A DNA stretch of 64,000 bases. Source: Methanolobus tindarius DSM 2278. Lineage in GTDB: Archaea; Halobacteriota; Methanosarcinia; Methanosarcinales; Methanosarcinaceae. The notes under the pieces were generated by a model that saw only the letters and a program-made list of their open reading frames with translations, searched no databases and had not been told where the DNA came from. A program made the translations under genes and the position numbers. This document shows positions 9,294 through 17,705 of the stretch, piece by piece; position 1 is the first letter of the stretch, and every line of letters begins with the position of its first letter. Location of the stretch: contig NZ_AZAJ01000001.1 in assembly GCF_000504205.1 (NCBI RefSeq), positions 1,338,879-1,402,878 on the forward strand. The letters run 5' to 3'.

Positions 9294-10211
9294 TTAATCA
9301 ACAAAAAGCTCAACGCCCATGAGCTCAAGGAAAATCTCTTCCAGTGACGGGACTATGGTACGCATTTCAACAATATCCCCGCCTTTTGAAGCAACCCATT
9401 TAGTTGTCTTGTTGACTACATTGATATCGTTTGTGATTACCACATAACTTTCATCAACTTCCTTGACAACTTCGGAGATAGTATAGTCTGCAATATCATC
9501 GACCTTAAACTCAAGACGATACTGGATCTTACCATACTCTTTCCTGATCTCTTCGGCAGTGCCAAGTGTTACAAGCTTTCCACCTTTTAAAATCAGTATC
9601 CTGTCACAAAGGCTTTCCACCTGGTACAGGTTATGAGCACTGAATATAATGGTCTTACCTGATTGCTTCAGGGAACGCACATAATCCGTGATGTACCTGG
9701 AAGTCATTGGGTCAAGACCAGATGCAGGTTCATCATAGATAAGGACATCGGGGTCATTGATTAGTGAGCGCGCAATAGCAACCTTTCGTTTCATACCTTT
9801 TGAAAGATCACCTATTTTCTTGCCATCCGGGTTGAGAGCAAGATCAAAAAGAAGTTCACGTATCCTTTTCTTAGCAAGGTCCTTGGGAACACAGTAAAGC
9901 TCTGCAAAGTACATGAGATAATCGTCTACTTCCATGCCCTCATAAAGCGGAGACTCTTCCGGAAGAAAACCGAGGAAAGACTTAATTTCAACTGCATCTG
10001 CGGATATATCCAGATCTTTCATATGGATAGAACCGGATGTGGGCCTGATTAGACTGCTGAGCATTTTCAGAGTGGTAGTTTTACCGGCACCGTTTGGTCC
10101 GACTATTCCGAAAATCTGCCCTTTTCCCACTGAGAAAGAAAGGTTATCAACGGCTACAAAATCGCCATATTCCTTGCGAAGTCCTTTAACTTCAATGATA
10201 GAAGGTTCCAC
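9294..10211 (-). CDS. ABC-2 type exporter ATP-binding protein
   Basis: ABC ATPase: Walker A GPNGAGKTTTLK, signature LSKGMKRKVAIA (LSGGQ variant of exporter type), Walker B DVLIYDEPASGLD, and the H-loop FSAHNLYQVE. The C-terminal ~80 residues are the DUF4162-like extension of Nat/CcmA-type exporters. The frame extends upstream of residue VEPSIIEVKG without an ATG; a TATA box (CTATATATAA region, 10231-10240) about 25 nt before the GTG at 10209-10211 indicates a leaderless transcript starting at GTG. The natural partners are the two permeases encoded divergently at 11255-14166; the MscS gene lies between them. Confidence 0.88.
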   Translation of the reverse strand: MEPSIIEVKGLRKEYGDFVAVDNLSFSVGKGQIFGIVGPNGAGKTTTLKMLSSLIRPTSGSIHMKDLDISADAVEIKSFLGFLPEESPLYEGMEVDDYLMYFAELYCVPKDLAKKRIRELLFDLALNPDGKKIGDLSKGMKRKVAIARSLINDPDVLIYDEPASGLDPMTSRYITDYVRSLKQSGKTIIFSAHNLYQVESLCDRILILKGGKLVTLGTAEEIRKEYGKIQYRLEFKVDDIADYTISEVVKEVDESYVVITNDINVVNKTTKWVASKGGDIVEMRTIVPSLEEIFLELMGVELFVD

Positions 10212-10263
10212 ACATAGACTATGAAACTGCCTATATATAAATTCAATTATAAAATAAAACAGA

Positions 10264-10286
10264 GCATAGTTGGATAACAACTATGC
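10264..10286 (-). terminator. Hairpin terminator after the MscS gene
   Basis: Perfect 9-bp inverted repeat GCATAGTTG / CAACTATGC with a 5-nt loop, followed on the minus strand by the T-rich stretch TCTGTTTTATTTTA. It lies 11 nt past the MscS stop and upstream of the TATA box of the ABC ATPase gene, so it probably separates the two transcripts. Confidence 0.65.
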
Positions 10287-10296
10287 CAATAAGACC

Positions 10297-11106
10297 TTAG
10301 TTCTTATACATGTGCACATCCAGTTGAGGGAATGGAATCTCAATATCCTGTGCACCGAATTCTGCATGAATAGCTATTGTGAGGTCGTTCTTTACACCCC
10401 AGAAGTCTGAAGTGTTAACCCATGCACGAAGTTGTAGATTCACTGATGAATCTGCAAGTTCTGTGGTTATAACTGCAGGTGCCGGGTCTGCCAAAACACG
10501 GGAATCTCTTTTAATAACATCCATTGCAATTGCAACTGCCTTAGGAACATCTGTGGAATAACCTACACCCACATCAACAGCCACTCTTCTGGTGGGCATG
10601 CGGGTTGCATTCACAATAGGGCTTCCCCACACAAGTTTGTTAGGAAGGGTTATGAACTGGTTATCAGGTGTGAGAAGTTCTGTTGCCATTATTCCCACTG
10701 CATGTACCGTACCTGACATACCATTAACTGTAACATATTCTCCTTTATCAAGCGGCCTGAGAGAAGCAATCCATATACCTGCAGCCAGGTTGTTAAGAGA
10801 ATCCTGCATACCAAATCCAAGAACTAAGCCGATAACTGCTGAAAGTCCGACTACGACTGAACTTATGTTAACTCCAAGTGCGCTGACTACTGCCAGTAAC
10901 ACACCCACATATAGCAGGGCGCGCAGGAAACGCACAAGGAATTCAATTATCAGTTCAGGAAGTTTTGTCTTTTTCAATCCTTTGCGGAACGTACCTGAAA
11001 GCACTCCCGCAATAACAATTCCGGCAACAAGCACCACAAGAGCAAATACAATACTTGCCACTGTGATATCTGTATAAGGAATTGTCTGAGATAAAATATC
11101 TGCCAT
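10297..11106 (-). CDS. Small-conductance mechanosensitive channel (MscS family)
   Basis: 269 residues. Three N-terminal transmembrane segments (~17-40, 62-82, 85-108) precede the MscS beta domain. The pore-lining third helix and its exit show VVVGLSAVIGLVLGFGMQDS and LNNLAAGIWI, followed by PLDKGEYVTVNGMSGTV, a classic MscS block. It opens under membrane tension to release osmolytes during hypo-osmotic shock. GGAG lies before the ATG. It is divergent from the ABC permease operon and upstream of the ABC ATPase gene, from which a hairpin terminator and a separate promoter appear to isolate it. Confidence 0.9.
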   Translation of the reverse strand: MADILSQTIPYTDITVASIVFALVVLVAGIVIAGVLSGTFRKGLKKTKLPELIIEFLVRFLRALLYVGVLLAVVSALGVNISSVVVGLSAVIGLVLGFGMQDSLNNLAAGIWIASLRPLDKGEYVTVNGMSGTVHAVGIMATELLTPDNQFITLPNKLVWGSPIVNATRMPTRRVAVDVGVGYSTDVPKAVAIAMDVIKRDSRVLADPAPAVITTELADSSVNLQLRAWVNTSDFWGVKNDLTIAIHAEFGAQDIEIPFPQLDVHMYKN

Positions 11107-11254: not shown

Positions 11255-13069
11255 ATGCCAGGCTGGTTAACTATCGCAAAATGGGAGTTGATGCGTTCAA
11301 AGCTCAAATTTGATACGCGCTCAATAATCATGCTCGTAATATCACTCATACTCGTAATAGTGGCATCCTACGCCGCATCACAAACCGGGATGAGCATGAA
11401 CCAGAAAATATACCTTGTAGCTTTTTCGCAGCCAGAGGTGCAACCAATTATCCAGACAGACCAGCGCTTTGACTACATGCTTGTAGACAGGTTTGAGGCT
11501 GCCGTTTATTATGAATACGGAGCCGACATGGCAATTATAGGAAATAATGTCTACCTCAGCGACACAAGAAAAGCTGCATCTGCGGGTGACGCACTGGAAA
11601 ACACATTCATAGAATACAGAGAACTTGTGCTCACATCATACAATGATATAAACAACAGTCACCCGGTCTGGGTCACAGTCCATGACCTTGAAAGGCCGCA
11701 GGACTTCCAGCTTGCAGGATCCACAGATACGCTGGATGAACTCAACAGAGGTTACAATAGAACAGCAGCGCTTGACACCGTCCCTGGTGGTCGTGAAGCT
11801 GCAAGCGGTAGTGGCAGCGGACGTGTAAGAACAGGTTCATCAACAATATCTCCCGAAGACATCGAAGCACTGGATGCCATGGAAGGAAAGACATTCTTTG
11901 AGAAGCAGACCCTCTCAACACCATCAAATTTCAATCCGCCTGTACCTTTTACAGCAATACTTTATGCATTCCTGTTCATATTCCCGATATATTTCGTTTC
12001 ACAATTTTATTCTACAAGCCTGATGGATGAACGTACCAACCGCAAAGGTGAACTCATACTTATAGCACCGCTAAGAAGCAGGGATGTTGTTATTGGCAAA
12101 ACAGTTCCATACCTTGTAATAACAATGGCAATACAGGCAGCTATAACTCTTTACATAATCGGAGTGCCATCAACACTTGCAGATCTGGAAAGAGTTGTTC
12201 TGATACTGGCTGCAATACTTCCGGTAATACTACTCTTCTTTGCACTCTCATTTTACAGTGCAATCCTTTCAAGAAGTTTCAAGGAACTTACTTTTGCAAG
12301 CGTTTTCCTTTCAGTCGTAATCTCAGGTTACCTGTTCTTCCCGGCAATGTTTGCAAACATTCACGCAATTAGTTCCATTTCCCCTATTACCCTAATAGTC
12401 AGGCTCATAGAGGGAGAAGCAGTACCCATGAATACATACCTGTTCTCAACATTACCGTTCTACCTTGTGGCAGGAGCAGTGTATGCATTTGGAACTTCAA
12501 TTTTCAGGGAAGAGGATCTGTTCACCCAGAAATCAATCGGGTCAAAGATAATAGACTGCTTTGAGATGTTCCTTACATACCGTTACGGTTCTGTATTTTT
12601 CCTCAGCATAATCTTCATCCCGGTAGTATATATGACACAGCTCATGCTCATTGTCATGCTCTTCAACCTGCCGGTTCCGTATTCAATAATTGCAATGATA
12701 ATCCTGTCAGCACTGGCTGAAGAGATAGTCAAATCCATTGGAATTTACACACTTTTCAAGAGAAAGATAAGCGAGATTACATTCAAAAATGCTGTTAAGC
12801 TTTCAGTACTTGCAGGTGCGGGATTCTTTGTGGGAGAAAAAGCTGTTGCAGTCCTTACACTTGCACCTATTGCAAGTTCAGCGTTCGGAACGGTAATGAC
12901 AATGGGTGCATTACTGTTGATACCACTTCTCCTGCATATAACAACCATACTTATCAGCTCACTGGTAATGTACTGGAAAGGCCCGGATGCCTACAAATAT
13001 GCAGTCGTAGCCGCAACAATATTCCATACCATATATAACATGACAATTCTAAGGGGGCTGTTATTCTGA
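11255..13069 (+). CDS. ABC-2 permease fused to a C-terminal PrsW-like membrane protease domain
   Basis: 604 residues. The N-terminal half is an ABC-2 type permease: TM1 at ~24-44, a ~180-residue external loop rich in Ser/Gly/Arg around residue 190, then a TM bundle beginning FTAILYAFLFIFPIYF with the cytosolic segment MDERTNRKGELILIAP typical of such permeases. After ~residue 430 the pattern changes to PrsW-like: LAEEIVKSIG (EExxK, ~488), GFFVGEKA (~523), LLHITTIL (~562) and FHTIYNM (~590), matching the four conserved motifs of glutamic-type intramembrane proteases. A TATA element ~25 nt before the ATG suggests a leaderless operon start. Probably exports, and perhaps processes, a surface component (inference). 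Confidence 0.75.
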   Translation: MPGWLTIAKWELMRSKLKFDTRSIIMLVISLILVIVASYAASQTGMSMNQKIYLVAFSQPEVQPIIQTDQRFDYMLVDRFEAAVYYEYGADMAIIGNNVYLSDTRKAASAGDALENTFIEYRELVLTSYNDINNSHPVWVTVHDLERPQDFQLAGSTDTLDELNRGYNRTAALDTVPGGREAASGSGSGRVRTGSSTISPEDIEALDAMEGKTFFEKQTLSTPSNFNPPVPFTAILYAFLFIFPIYFVSQFYSTSLMDERTNRKGELILIAPLRSRDVVIGKTVPYLVITMAIQAAITLYIIGVPSTLADLERVVLILAAILPVILLFFALSFYSAILSRSFKELTFASVFLSVVISGYLFFPAMFANIHAISSISPITLIVRLIEGEAVPMNTYLFSTLPFYLVAGAVYAFGTSIFREEDLFTQKSIGSKIIDCFEMFLTYRYGSVFFLSIIFIPVVYMTQLMLIVMLFNLPVPYSIIAMIILSALAEEIVKSIGIYTLFKRKISEITFKNAVKLSVLAGAGFFVGEKAVAVLTLAPIASSAFGTVMTMGALLLIPLLLHITTILISSLVMYWKGPDAYKYAVVAATIFHTIYNMTILRGLLF

Positions 13070-13095: not shown

Positions 13096-14166
13096 ATGAA
13101 AACTGTTGCAAAGAAGGAATTCAAAGACCTTCTTACAGAGAAAACTTTCATACTTGCTATTATAATCCAGCTTTTCATAGCATCGTTCTCAACCTTCCTC
13201 GTCATAGGCCTGACATCATTCTATGACCCAACAGCACTTGGAAATGTTGACTTTGAAGGAGTGAACATAGGAGTTGTCGGAACCGCAGATGATGAACTTT
13301 ACCAGATACTTATAGAAAATAATGTGGAAACTTACCTATATGACGATTTCATTCCAGCCTACGGAGACTTCTTTGACCGGAAAATAGATGCAATCATAGT
13401 GACACCTATTGGAACAGCCGAAGGCACAGACCTTCTTAATGTTGATATATACCTGCCAAAATCAGAAATTAAAGCCACTGTCATATCTCTCCAGCTGAAG
13501 GAATCACTGGAACAATACGAACAGGGTGTCAGGGATGTCAGGACACAGAGACTTCCGGGATATTCACCCATAGATTTCAACATCATAAAGAGAGGAGTAC
13601 GTGCTTCCTCAACATTCTTTGAATTCGTTTATGTGGCACTGCTTCCACTACTTGTATTCACACCTGCTTTTATCTCAGGTGGCCTTGTGATTGATTTCAT
13701 AACAGAGGAATATGAACGCAAAACAATGGATTTGCTCCTCGCATCTCCTGCATCCTTGCTTGAGATTATAAGCGGCAAAGCCATACTTGCCATTCTTGTT
13801 GTACCGGTACAATCATTTGTATGGATGCTGCTCCTTTCTATGAACAGAATATCCATAGATAATTCACTCCAGATTTTGCTGGTGGTCACTCTGATAGCAG
13901 GAGTGCTGGTATTCTCAAGTACAATAATTGCAGTGTTCTTCAAAGACAGGGGGGTAGCACAGCTGCTGTACTCACTTGTGTTGATATTCCTGTTCATGTC
14001 GTCGTACCTGTTCACAAATTCCCCGCTCAACCTTGTAACAAGACTTTCTATCAATAGCATTCCTGTAATTGAAAGCTGGACATGGACTGGTATTTACCTT
14101 GTTCTGGCGCTGCTGCTCTACATGGCAACAATGTTTGTAATCAAAAAAGACCCACGTAACATTTGA
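13096..14166 (+). CDS. ABC-2 type permease
   Basis: 356 residues with one N-terminal membrane segment (~14-38), a ~140-residue external domain, and a C-terminal bundle of about five transmembrane helices starting FFEFVYVALLPLLVFTPAF. The motif EEYERKTMDLLLASPAS is the cytosolic coupling segment found in Nat/YhaP-like permeases. It begins 27 nt after the previous permease and is followed within 20 nt by a surface-protein gene. With the ATPase encoded at 9294-10211 it would complete a heteromeric exporter. Substrate unknown. Confidence 0.85.
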   Translation: MKTVAKKEFKDLLTEKTFILAIIIQLFIASFSTFLVIGLTSFYDPTALGNVDFEGVNIGVVGTADDELYQILIENNVETYLYDDFIPAYGDFFDRKIDAIIVTPIGTAEGTDLLNVDIYLPKSEIKATVISLQLKESLEQYEQGVRDVRTQRLPGYSPIDFNIIKRGVRASSTFFEFVYVALLPLLVFTPAFISGGLVIDFITEEYERKTMDLLLASPASLLEIISGKAILAILVVPVQSFVWMLLLSMNRISIDNSLQILLVVTLIAGVLVFSSTIIAVFFKDRGVAQLLYSLVLIFLFMSSYLFTNSPLNLVTRLSINSIPVIESWTWTGIYLVLALLLYMATMFVIKKDPRNI

Positions 14167-14185: not shown

Positions 14186-16012
14186 ATGATGCGACTGATC
14201 AAGCTGCTATTACTTACCATAATCCTGATAGCATTCATAAATCCCGTAGATTCAACTGCAATTAAAGAGGAAGACATATGGATCTTCCAGGGTTCGTATG
14301 AACTTGGAGTAGGAGAAAGGGCATACCTTGAAGGCTTCACAGTGAAAGTAAACGAGTTAGATAGTGATAATATAACAACTGCAACTCTGTTAATATACAG
14401 TAACTCCGTTTTTATGGAATCTTTTGAAGTGGATTCAGGAGTCAATAATGAATACATCTATGACGGAGAGTTGAAAATCAATGTCGCATCCATTGAAAAT
14501 TCTAAAGTTTCCCTGGAAATTTACAAACATAAATCGGAGCTTGTGTGGGTCACTGATATTCCAAAGACTGCATTTAAGACAGGAGATTCCCTGACAGGAA
14601 ACGACTACCGCATTACACTAAATGGGATTAATGAAGGAGTAGCAGAAGTAGTTGTCAACCTTGACGGAGAAGAGTACGAGAGAACATACACAAGTGGCGC
14701 TTATGAAAAGTTCTCAGAAGATTTCATGATTAATATTGTGTACATCAACAAGAACACACAGGAAGTCTTCATCGAAACACTCAAACCTGGCGAACCTCAG
14801 ATCCAGATCGATGCAGGTAATATTCAGGAAAGTTATGATCCGGATGATTATGTGGAATATGAACTTGTGGTCACTAATAACGGATCAATACCGCTACACG
14901 GAATCATACTCACAACTGAATGTGACGATGGTAAAGTTGAGCTTGTAACACAGCAGCACTCAATACTTGAACCGGGGAAGAAGAAAAAATTCCAGATACG
15001 TGTAAAGCCTGATGTTGAACCTGTTACCAGGAATATCACAATCACTACCAGTGTGGAAGGTTACGATTACAGGGGAAATGAATACAACAATGAGAAAGAC
15101 ACAGAGGCAACTGTAAATTCGTATATTTCCATTGAAAAAGAAGTCATTTCCAAAGAAAAAATATCAGAAGATCCGGAATTTGGAACTGAACAGTATTTCC
15201 AGATAAACATTACAGTTGCCAATAAAGCAAATTTCCAGACTGCAGTTACAGTCACCGATATTTTGCCACCTGAATTCATACCAAATGATATTGAAAGCAC
15301 TGAATGGTCAATGGCACTTAATGCAGGAGAAACAAAGAGTATTGGCTATTTTGCATCCTCAACCGAACCGGGAGATTTTACTTTTGAGCCAGCCACTGTT
15401 GTGTGGAAAGATAGCGGTGAAACTTACAGCATGCAGTCTAACCCTATAGAAGGAACATTCCATGTCAGCGGTTCAAAAGTTATGTTACAGAAAGAAATCA
15501 CTTCCAGCTACATGGTTGTAGGAGAAACTATTGATGTTATTCTCAAAGTCACAAATGACGGGGACAAGGATATCGATATCTCTTTCAGGGAAGATATGCC
15601 GGATGAACTCACTTATGTCGTAGGAGAAAGGCAGTGGCATGGAACACTGGCAGCAGGCGACGTAAAAGAGTTCACATATACTGTAAAGGCTGAAAGAGCC
15701 GGGGAATACTACCTGCCTGAAACTGAACTTAGTATTACGGATGAAAATGATAAGAAGGATAATGTGGTCTCAGATGAACTTTTCCTTTTCATTGATGACA
15801 TACCCGCAGAGCTAGAAGAGGAAAGCTACGAAGAGACTTACAATCAGGTTGATGCCTCATCAGCATACTCCAGTGATACAACAGTTGCAGACCCAGATAT
15901 TACAAGTGTTGAAATCATGAAGTTCCTTGTTTCATCTTTTGCAACACTTTTCACTGTTATTGCAATCGTACCGACTTTTGCATATTTATTTATATCCAGA
16001 GTATATAAGTAA
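14186..16012 (+). CDS. Large surface protein with repeated CARDB/DUF11-like domains, C-terminal membrane anchor
   Basis: 608 residues with a signal peptide (~1-25), an extracellular region of ~550 residues and one C-terminal transmembrane helix (~578-602). Several Ig-like beta domains are visible; those from ~residue 210 onwards have the CARDB/DUF11 pattern of repeated phrases about divergence and conflict, e.g. YELVVTNNGSIPLHGI, ITVANKANFQTAVTVTDILP and VILKVTNDGDKDIDISF. It is the third gene of the exporter operon and may be its cargo, a scaffold, or an external partner of the permeases. No enzyme motif is seen. Confidence 0.7.
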   Translation: MMRLIKLLLLTIILIAFINPVDSTAIKEEDIWIFQGSYELGVGERAYLEGFTVKVNELDSDNITTATLLIYSNSVFMESFEVDSGVNNEYIYDGELKINVASIENSKVSLEIYKHKSELVWVTDIPKTAFKTGDSLTGNDYRITLNGINEGVAEVVVNLDGEEYERTYTSGAYEKFSEDFMINIVYINKNTQEVFIETLKPGEPQIQIDAGNIQESYDPDDYVEYELVVTNNGSIPLHGIILTTECDDGKVELVTQQHSILEPGKKKKFQIRVKPDVEPVTRNITITTSVEGYDYRGNEYNNEKDTEATVNSYISIEKEVISKEKISEDPEFGTEQYFQINITVANKANFQTAVTVTDILPPEFIPNDIESTEWSMALNAGETKSIGYFASSTEPGDFTFEPATVVWKDSGETYSMQSNPIEGTFHVSGSKVMLQKEITSSYMVVGETIDVILKVTNDGDKDIDISFREDMPDELTYVVGERQWHGTLAAGDVKEFTYTVKAERAGEYYLPETELSITDENDKKDNVVSDELFLFIDDIPAELEEESYEETYNQVDASSAYSSDTTVADPDITSVEIMKFLVSSFATLFTVIAIVPTFAYLFISRVYK

Positions 16013-16039
16013 AGTAAAAATATTAATCAGGAATTGAGT

Positions 16040-16453
16040 ATGAATATTGCAGCGTTTATAGGATCTTCGATGCTTTTTGCCCTGTTCGCCATTGTAGTGC
16101 TCTTTGTCCTGATAAATATGTCATCACGACTTGCACTTATTATTTTACTGATAATCCCGCTTGCATTCATACTTGTTATTCCTGACATATCAATAGCTTT
16201 TCTTTCCATCCAGCAGATGTCACTTGCAAACGGACTTGTACCGGTGAATAATTTCCACATATTGCTCATGATATGGTCAACACTCATAGGTGTCATCCTG
16301 TACACAGAATTCCTGACATGGTATCTTGGAAAGGGCATGAGGATGAAGAAAAATTCCGATGGTTCTATGAAAGCCGGAGTTTCTTCAACCCTGGATAAAG
16401 GCTTGTATGATTTTGTAGGGAAAGTCAGAGGAATCCTTAACCGCAAGAAATAA
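16040..16453 (+). CDS. Small membrane protein of the exporter operon
   Basis: About 137 residues with three hydrophobic segments (~5-30, 32-55, 75-95), then a basic cytosolic tail (KGMRMKKNSDG, RGILNRKK). The frame opens at TTG 16034, but AGGA 8 nt before the ATG at 16040 favours that start. It follows the surface protein by 27 nt and is followed by a hairpin terminator. No family recognised; its location suggests an accessory role to the exporter. Confidence 0.6.
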   Translation: MNIAAFIGSSMLFALFAIVVLFVLINMSSRLALIILLIIPLAFILVIPDISIAFLSIQQMSLANGLVPVNNFHILLMIWSTLIGVILYTEFLTWYLGKGMRMKKNSDGSMKAGVSSTLDKGLYDFVGKVRGILNRKK

Positions 16454-16533: not shown

Positions 16534-16809
16534 ATGGAAAGCAATAATGAAATAGCAACTGCCACTGAAGAGTTTAAACCACAAGCATGGAGAGCAGGAC
16601 TTTATTCTGCCATATATCCCGGACTGGGACAGATGTATAATGGAGACTTTAACAGAGGAGCTTTTTATTTTGTCCTTGCCTTCATACTCATAATCACATT
16701 TTATTTCGTAATAACGTTCTTTATTTTCATTGTATTCTGGATCTACAACATATACCAGGCTTACAGCTATGCCAGAAGTTTCAGTAAAGGCATCAATAAA
16801 GATGAATAG
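16534..16809 (+). CDS. Small TM2-like membrane protein
   Basis: 91 residues. The segment LYSAIYPGLGQMYNGDFNRG followed by two long hydrophobic helices (~43-62 and 63-80) matches the TM2/DUF5683-like pattern (proline-glycine loop before a helical hairpin). Such proteins are small membrane proteins of unknown role. A terminator separates it from the exporter operon upstream, and it is convergent with AIM24. Confidence 0.65.
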   Translation: MESNNEIATATEEFKPQAWRAGLYSAIYPGLGQMYNGDFNRGAFYFVLAFILIITFYFVITFFIFIVFWIYNIYQAYSYARSFSKGINKDE

Positions 16810-16871: not shown

Positions 16872-17705
16872 TTATGCAGGATTATTTCTGTTATATGGTG
16901 CTGCTGCAAGTGATGAAACACCGCTTGCTCCGATAGAACCGTAAACCGGCTGTGTTGGTGCAAGCCAAACTGTTCCTGTTCCTTCAAAAGTCTGGAGGAG
17001 ACCTTCGCCTGATGTAAGCTTTCCTGCAATTCCTTTGCCTGATCTTTCAACACTGAATTTCACTGAATCAGATCTTAGAAGGGCAAAGTTTCCGTCAACC
17101 TGGAGACGCTCGTTGTCAAGATTATATTTCAGGATCTCAGACATAGGCACCGGACTTTCAAGTATGCATGTACCTGTTCCGCTAATCTTTGTCTGGAACC
17201 ATCCTTCCCCACCAAAGAGACCTGCAGAGATATTCTTCTGGGAAGCTACCCCTACTTCAAGGCTTGATTCAGCGCAGTAGAAAATGCCCTTGTCCACGAT
17301 TATAGAACCATTGTCAAGACTTACCACGATGAAATGACTGAAACTTGGCTCAAGGAATACCTCTCCAGTACCCTTATAAAGCGGATTGAATGCAGATTCG
17401 TTTGTGAGCTTGTTTTTGATCATCTTCTTTGCAAGGCCACCGACACCACCTATGTTAGCATCACATGTGATGTTACCTTTCTGGAAGTAAAGAGCTCCAG
17501 GCTCCACGATTACACCGCTGTTGTTTAATGTGACCTTTACCTGCTTAAGGGTCATACCTGCCTGCTGAATATAGTACAGATGCCTTGCAAGTGAAGGGTT
17601 CTTGCTTCCTGTGAGAGATTTATACTCTATAATCTCTGCTTTGAAATTTCCTTTATCGACACTATCAAGAACGTTAATGTTGTTATAGAATTTACTTTCC
17701 GCTAT
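16872..17705 (-). CDS. AIM24 family protein with a non-canonical or lost start codon
   Basis: AIM24 (DUF124, TIGR00266-like) protein. The first in-frame ATG (17553-17555) lies inside the conserved domain (QQAGMTLKQVKVTL). Upstream the frame stays open for 58 more codons and encodes clear family sequence (NFKAEIIEYKSL, SKNPSLARHLYYIQQAG), but none of these codons is ATG, GTG or TTG before the TGA at 17730-17732. The codon just before GCG-GAA-AGT is ATA (17703-17705), preceded by GGATGTGG, so translation probably starts at this AUA, or an ATG was lost or misread. The rest has typical glycine-rich beta strands (GTGEVFLEPSF, LFGGEGWFQTKISGTG, SGEGLLQTFEGTGTVWLAP). Function unknown; beta-sandwich family related to phospholipid scramblase-like folds. 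Confidence 0.75.
   Translation of the reverse strand: MAESKFYNNINVLDSVDKGNFKAEIIEYKSLTGSKNPSLARHLYYIQQAGMTLKQVKVTLNNSGVIVEPGALYFQKGNITCDANIGGVGGLAKKMIKNKLTNESAFNPLYKGTGEVFLEPSFSHFIVVSLDNGSIIVDKGIFYCAESSLEVGVASQKNISAGLFGGEGWFQTKISGTGTCILESPVPMSEILKYNLDNERLQVDGNFALLRSDSVKFSVERSGKGIAGKLTSGEGLLQTFEGTGTVWLAPTQPVYGSIGASGVSSLAAAPYNRNNPA

Follow-up and report, generated by a model that had tools for sequence, protein, structure and literature searches.

The stretch of DNA analysed here, termed the window, is 64,000 nucleotides of the Methanolobus tindarius DSM 2278 genome. It contains an open reading frame in which an ABC-2 permease half is followed by a PrsW-type protease domain at the C-terminus, together with a set of closely spaced neighbors. 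The features of the locus, in window coordinates, are as follows.

9294..10280, minus strand: DrrA/GldA-like ABC ATPase, divergent from the fusion gene (PF00005, 2e-28; PF13732, 7e-9)
10297..11106, minus strand: MscS-type channel, between the ATPase and fusion genes
11255..13069, plus strand: ABC-2 permease/PrsW-type intramembrane protease fusion, 604 aa, open reading frame with an ATG start
11255..12529, plus strand: permease half of the fusion, residues 1-425 (structure model, VIA-align, weak PF12698 match)
12563..13066, plus strand: PrsW-type protease domain of the fusion, residues 437-604, with E489/E490/K493, F524/E528/K529, H561 and H591/N595 (alignment, model, hhalign)
13096..14166, plus strand: 356-aa second ABC-2 permease, its gene 26 bp downstream of the fusion gene (PF12698, 6e-14)
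14186..16012, plus strand: surface protein, 608 aa, with DUF11/BatD-like domains, and a signal peptide and C-terminal transmembrane segment recognized by eye; 19 bp after the second permease gene
16034..16453, plus strand: small protein, 139 aa, no family match, a membrane protein as judged by eye; lineage-specific neighbor
16534-16809, plus strand: small protein, 91 aa, sub-threshold DUF5683 match
16872-17555, minus strand: AIM24-family protein (PF01987, 158 bits), adjoining the operon

A first-pass annotation of the window had described a complete ABC-2 permease half in the fusion protein, and the structure model of residues 1-425 bears this out. TM1 is followed in the model by a loop of about 185 residues and then by TM2-6; the loop is predicted to be extracytoplasmic. 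The model of the whole protein has a mean pLDDT of 71.8, with the loop at 130-230 poorly modeled. Structural comparison of the permease half using VIA-align gave NosY as a match with Z 16.7 (223 residues, rmsd 4.0 A), followed by ABCG5/8 (Z 16.5, 229 residues, 3.8 A) and ABCA7 (Z 16.4, 233 residues, 3.8 A). Rows 1-41 of the result were all ABC-2 exporter permeases with Z of at least 11, and the row after these had Z 7.0. Foldseek returned nothing at E <= 0.001 for the whole-protein model that includes the permease. Pfam searches with the window protein gave a sub-threshold match to ABC2_membrane_3 (PF12698; E 0.012), and this family was matched at E <= 10 in 27 of 29 chosen fusion orthologs, with 2e-16 as the best value. 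In profile comparisons with hhalign, the permease half scored 88% against the second permease and 0.3% against PrsW. The features of an ABC-2 exporter, namely the permease fold, two permease genes and an ABC ATPase, are all present at the locus. From gene linkage and fold we infer that the ATPase, the fusion and the second permease form one exporter of this kind.

The four PrsW-like motifs that had been reported in the C-terminal third were located in the open reading frame at residues 487 (LAEEIVK), 523 (GFFVGEK), 559 (LLHIT) and 590 (FHTIYNM). They are not chance occurrences, as their residues are kept across 154 distinct C-domains: E489, E490, K493, E528, K529, H561 and H591 are identical in all 154, a set in which the lowest identity is 20% between any pair and 23% to the window protein. 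These domains come from loci that we selected from the match lists and fetched, so they do not sample at random the 203 matching genomes described below. Position 595 is N in 148 of the 154 and D in 6, HxxxD replacing HxxxN in L117, L165, L166, L170, L171 and L232. F524 is F in 154 of 155 alignment rows and E528 is E in all 155; the rows number one more than the distinct domains because one C-domain occurs twice (L155 and L183) and was counted once. The invariance held at each sampling: in 52 full-length proteins (after removal of matches with fewer than 550 aligned residues and of sequences identical to or contained in others), then in 72 proteins across the phylum (L044 left out as the same gene as L105), and then in the 155 rows (frames shorter than 450 aa and identical sequences left out). 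Within L154-L243, no row was taken from L172, which lies at a contig end, from L178 and L179, which are distant relatives, from L238, with a frame of 444 aa, or from L180-L182, which are further matches in genomes already giving L154, L156 and L159. Thus conservation of the motif residues among orthologs, which the first-pass annotation had left to be examined, was found to be strict across the sampled phylum.

The pattern of these residues is that of PrsW. E489, E490 and K493 form an EExxK motif within a modeled helix at 476-502. F524 and E528 provide FxxxE, which we take to be the second PrsW motif, in the next helix, and the genome's stand-alone PrsW also has this motif (GFAALES). According to a passage of PMC4602095, PrsW proteins are marked by EExxK, an extra His and HxxxD, and CAAX-type proteases by EExxxR and HxxxN. 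The fused domains have the extra His that CAAX-type proteases lack (H561), together with HxxxN or HxxxD in the last core helix. The HxxxD form seen in six orthologs is the form given for PrsW in that passage.

Profile comparison supports the same assignment. When the fused domains were compared with 30 stand-alone archaeal PrsW sequences using hhalign, the alignment spanned 154 columns at a probability of 96% and brought all four motifs into register, whereas control profiles (MATE, MscS and the second permease) gave less than 1%. The Pfam PrsW model, PF13367, found no match in the window protein, either whole or as the C-domain alone. Elsewhere this model exceeded its curated cut-off at 20 fusion loci in 147 genomes, at 17 of them alone and at 3 with neighboring same-frame stretches, and matched 3 more loci below the cut-off; we assigned these loci to the fusion against the match positions of the fusion searches. 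Among nine fused C-domains scanned separately, five were above the cut-off (L108, L110, L114, L118 and L120) and four had no match (the window copy, L036, L115 and L104). L104 exceeded the cut-off at the locus level, yet its separate C-domain gave only a weak Rce1-like match (0.77). Scans of whole fusion proteins matched PF13367 at E <= 10 in 2 of 29, and the NCBIfam models assigned no protease name to the fusion. Since Pfam misses many of the fused copies, the domain appears to be a diverged PrsW that routine scans often overlook.

The fold of the protease domain is consistent with this assignment, but the argument rests on motifs and profiles because the structural scores are low and ABC-2 permeases share the topology of APH-1, without clear homology according to the part of PMC6588880 that treats it. 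The model of residues 429-604 has a mean pLDDT of 90.8. Its top VIA-align matches were a chain of the multipass translocon (Z 10.6), a chain of the BOS complex (10.4) and APH-1, a subunit of gamma-secretase (9.9-10.3), all below the Z of about 13 under which, by the tool's own warning, a match may mean only a common helical arrangement. Lower matches included ECF S-components, Mce1, SpdC (6.6) and the CAAX protease Rce1 (4cad; Z 6.2, 126 residues, 3.6 A), and CcmB, LptF and NosY also appeared, with Z of 5-6. In Foldseek the domain had no match at E <= 0.001, the lowest E being 1.2. Searches by sequence for a solved structural relative gave none for the protease-domain profile and none that was convincing for the stand-alone PrsW of the genome. 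As ABC-2 permeases and APH-1/Rce1 bundles share topology, the fusion may join two distant cousins of one fold. Over the 155 rows, K and R are frequent in the predicted inside loops 417-446, 503-512 and 574-581 and rare in the outside loops 470-475 and 540-550; loop 417-446 is also rich in D and E. If the N-terminus of the permease is taken as inside, E489 and E490 would lie in mid-membrane, with E528, H561 and H591 slightly outward. Such an outward lean of the presumed catalytic residues would be as expected for a site-1-like protease, the type that the first-pass annotation had proposed.

The fusion is widespread in the sampled phylum. Matches were found in 37 of 60 genomes, the source genome included. 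A sample of 392 genomes from across the phylum gave matches in 203 at E <= 0.001, although in at least two of these (G250 and G084) the match is weak and partial. Named carriers include Methanolobus, Methanomethylovorans, Methanosalsum, Candidatus Methanoperedens and Haladaptatus. Several genomes of the window's own family had no fusion match, for example G028, G030, G033 and G036. G250, also of this family and without a full-length fusion match, carries a 270-aa stand-alone PrsW (L178, 1438-2247; PF13367, 78 bits) that ends in a zinc ribbon (PF13240). In the widest search for relatives, all matches listed were within the phylum. Plasmid records yielded one match, in a haloarchaeon, where the protein is annotated merely as "ABC transporter permease subunit".

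In an unrooted tree of 115 fused domains and 30 stand-alone domains, a single branch divides the two groups with support of 99/96. The fused sequences were representatives with less than 80% identity, and the stand-alone sequences were the best Pfam scorers plus L031; L144 was omitted, as the frame picked had no motif. The two groups also stay apart in a FastTree analysis of 62 fused and 31 stand-alone rows, with L178 added. Divergence of the N-terminal half of the fusion tracks that of the C-terminal half (r = 0.91, 0/999 permutations). These results are consistent with a single origin of the fused domain without amounting to proof of it, because the bootstrap had not settled, the tree carried a long-branch warning, above all for L031, and the stand-alone rows were best Pfam scorers. 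L031 (1177-2127) is the sole stand-alone PrsW of the source genome recognized by Pfam, and it lies outside the window.

The closest neighbors of the fusion are conserved. The second permease lies directly downstream of the fusion at all 69 distinct loci. A DrrA-like ATPase was found upstream at 63 of 65 distinct loci (those with 4 kb of upstream sequence or with the ATPase found), divergent at 56 and on the same strand at 7; the two without it were L044/L105 and L104. Models TIGR01188 and GldA match the ATPase below their cut-offs. In Methanolobus and some of its close relatives the MscS gene separates the ATPase from the fusion; in other lineages the ATPase is mostly directly beside the fusion. 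When flanking ORFs of 72 loci were clustered, the clusters listed that spanned lineages were the second permease (72/72) and the ATPases (68/72), and the other listed clusters of at least 30 loci were antisense within the fusion or the second permease. Neighbors shared within the Methanosarcinaceae were the surface protein (29 loci), the 139-aa small protein (25), and MATE, MarR and 398-aa proteins (24 each). The MarR and MATE genes lie beyond the ATPase. Some upstream genes were common to L108-L114. No candidate substrate gene adjoining the module and shared across the phylum was found among the 40 clusters listed. The ORFs that come first after the second permease, selected mechanically at 36 of the 72 loci and read by eye, revealed no family beyond close relatives. 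A search for defense systems using PADLOC gave no match for the fusion, the second permease or the surface protein, and 20 models matched the ATPase. The PHROGs models for phage origin matched neither the fusion nor its two small neighbors.

Taken together, these observations suggest a DrrA-like ATPase acting with two permease halves, one of which bears a C-terminal PrsW-type glutamyl protease that would cut membrane peptides, while the pump removes or exports the product; we give this explanation an even chance of being correct. The fused protease is probably active, to judge from residues conserved as they would be in a working enzyme, and it would sit beside the transport path with its active site at the middle of the membrane or toward its outer half. 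Its substrates would be membrane-inserted peptides, such as what is left of signal peptides, transmembrane stubs or a short precursor of hydrophobic character; the pump would then pull the cut product out of the membrane or export it. It is plausible that the molecule exported is the molecule cut. Against this explanation stand the failure to find, among the clusters listed and the ORFs read, a candidate substrate gene shared beside the module across the phylum, the lack of a PrsW HMM score for the window copy, and the fact that a protease serving in regulation would be expected to show an identical pattern of conserved sequence. More tentatively, and with somewhat less than even probability, the module may be a widespread, unannotated archaeal ATP-driven "cut and extract" machine, with protease and ABC-2 translocator in one polypeptide, which clears signal peptides and stubs or makes and exports a hydrophobic peptide signal. 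To our knowledge, the ways in which archaea dispose of cleaved signal peptides and membrane stubs, or send peptide signals, are poorly understood. The fusion is matched in about half of the genomes sampled from the phylum, yet the sole annotated copy seen is named as an ABC transporter permease subunit.

Several known systems resemble the proposed complex in part. Exporters of the NosFY, DrrAB and GldA type have the same ATPase and permease fold but no protease domain. The C39-type peptidase-containing ABC transporters do carry protease and exporter on one chain, but there the protease is a soluble N-terminal cysteine protease domain and the exporter is of another fold. In EcsAB-RasP and PptAB-Eep, an ABC exporter is linked to an intramembrane protease, as described in parts of PMC7478892, PMC2996298 and PMC7564271, but these are bacterial systems with separate genes and a site-2 metalloprotease. 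In the relevant part of PMC7564271, mature signaling peptides are exported by PptAB and matured by Eep, with interplay between the two suggested. The archaeal complex would do in one unit the jobs of these separate pairs, and with protease and pump on one chain the connection of ABC transporters with intramembrane proteolysis would become directly testable by structure and biochemistry.

The fused domain itself resembles the PrsW family (PF13367; B. subtilis PrsW, peptidase family M82) in the motifs and profile matches given above, but differs from it in lying behind an ABC-2 permease half, in having K after the E of motif 2 in 155 of 155 rows, and in its separation from the 30 stand-alone archaeal PrsW domains in the tree. 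NCBI model NF041647 (ABC transporter permease subunit/CPBP intramembrane protease) describes a comparable arrangement, an ABC-2 permease followed by a clan-related protease over 636 model positions, the order being judged from the model name and from what matches each end: the second permease of the locus matches its N-terminal part (1e-9, 40.3 bits), and a CPBP protein encoded elsewhere in the genome matches its C-terminal part (37.8 bits). These matches are loose, as the model also gives matches in 13 of 14 control genomes and exceeds its cut-off in none. The protease of NF041647 is of CPBP rather than PrsW type, and the model (cut-off 435 bits) did not match the window fusion and matched 1 of 29 fusion members, at 0.61. 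The existence of this model means that a fusion of an ABC-2 permease with a clan-related protease is, as a kind, known to annotators. The PrsW type of the fusion, its spread and its conservation appear to be new; no paper on a PrsW-ABC permease fusion was found among the matches listed in a search of titles and abstract starts of open-licence literature.

A different reading, which we consider unlikely but the strongest of the alternatives, is that the protease serves regulated intramembrane proteolysis, cutting a membrane-bound regulator or surface protein, with the ABC part acting as an ATP-driven sensor or gate and exporting no product. The large loop after TM1 in the fusion model would suit such a sensor, and a MarR-type gene is present at 24 of the 72 loci, all in the Methanosarcinaceae. 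No regulator gene shared across lineages, however, was seen beside the module, either among the clusters listed or at the 36 loci read by eye, and we know of no sigma factors in archaea. Precedents exist in bacteria: passages of PMC4602095 and PMC10202637 describe B. subtilis PrsW as the site-1 protease for RsiW, and in the part of PMC2996298 that deals with it, RasP is affected by EcsAB, for which no transport substrate is known. The section of PMC3482391 on PrsW fusions likewise describes sensory partners such as PilZ, cNMP-binding and FHA domains, along with Zn-ribbon and toxin domains; it makes no mention of ABC permeases.

It is improbable that the domain is a structural, non-proteolytic clan member that only stabilizes the transporter, in the manner of APH-1. 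The best structural matches, to the chains of the multipass translocon and the BOS complex and to APH-1, which we presume to be non-catalytic, do point in this direction. But the EE pair, K, E and both H residues in 154 of 154 domains, with N or D always at 595, would be hard to explain for a scaffold, and a passage of PMC11980579 gives EE and HxxxN as critical for catalysis in CAAX-type relatives.

The first-pass annotation had also proposed the adjoining 608-aa surface protein as the substrate, and in this respect the earlier interpretation, which otherwise holds for the fusion and for the conservation of its motifs, is supported only in part. Of the 64 distinct loci whose downstream sequence was long enough, BLASTP with the window copy as query found the surface protein at 29, all in the Methanosarcinaceae as judged from record titles or genus labels, and gave no match at 35, where a strongly diverged relative could have escaped detection. 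A general substrate is unlikely with this distribution and was rejected as a rule, and a protein limited to one lineage cannot explain a protease domain whose motifs are kept in all 154 orthologs examined. That the domain is a dedicated processor of this neighbor is therefore very improbable, in spite of the gene order, the close spacing and the 29 loci, as the surface protein also diverges quickly (identity down to 29%) while the motifs stay unchanged. It may be a lineage-specific client in the Methanosarcinaceae. Scans of the DNA gave 27 promoter-like sites against 22.5 expected, a count that is not informative for an archaeon, and 12 terminator-like sites against 6.1 expected.
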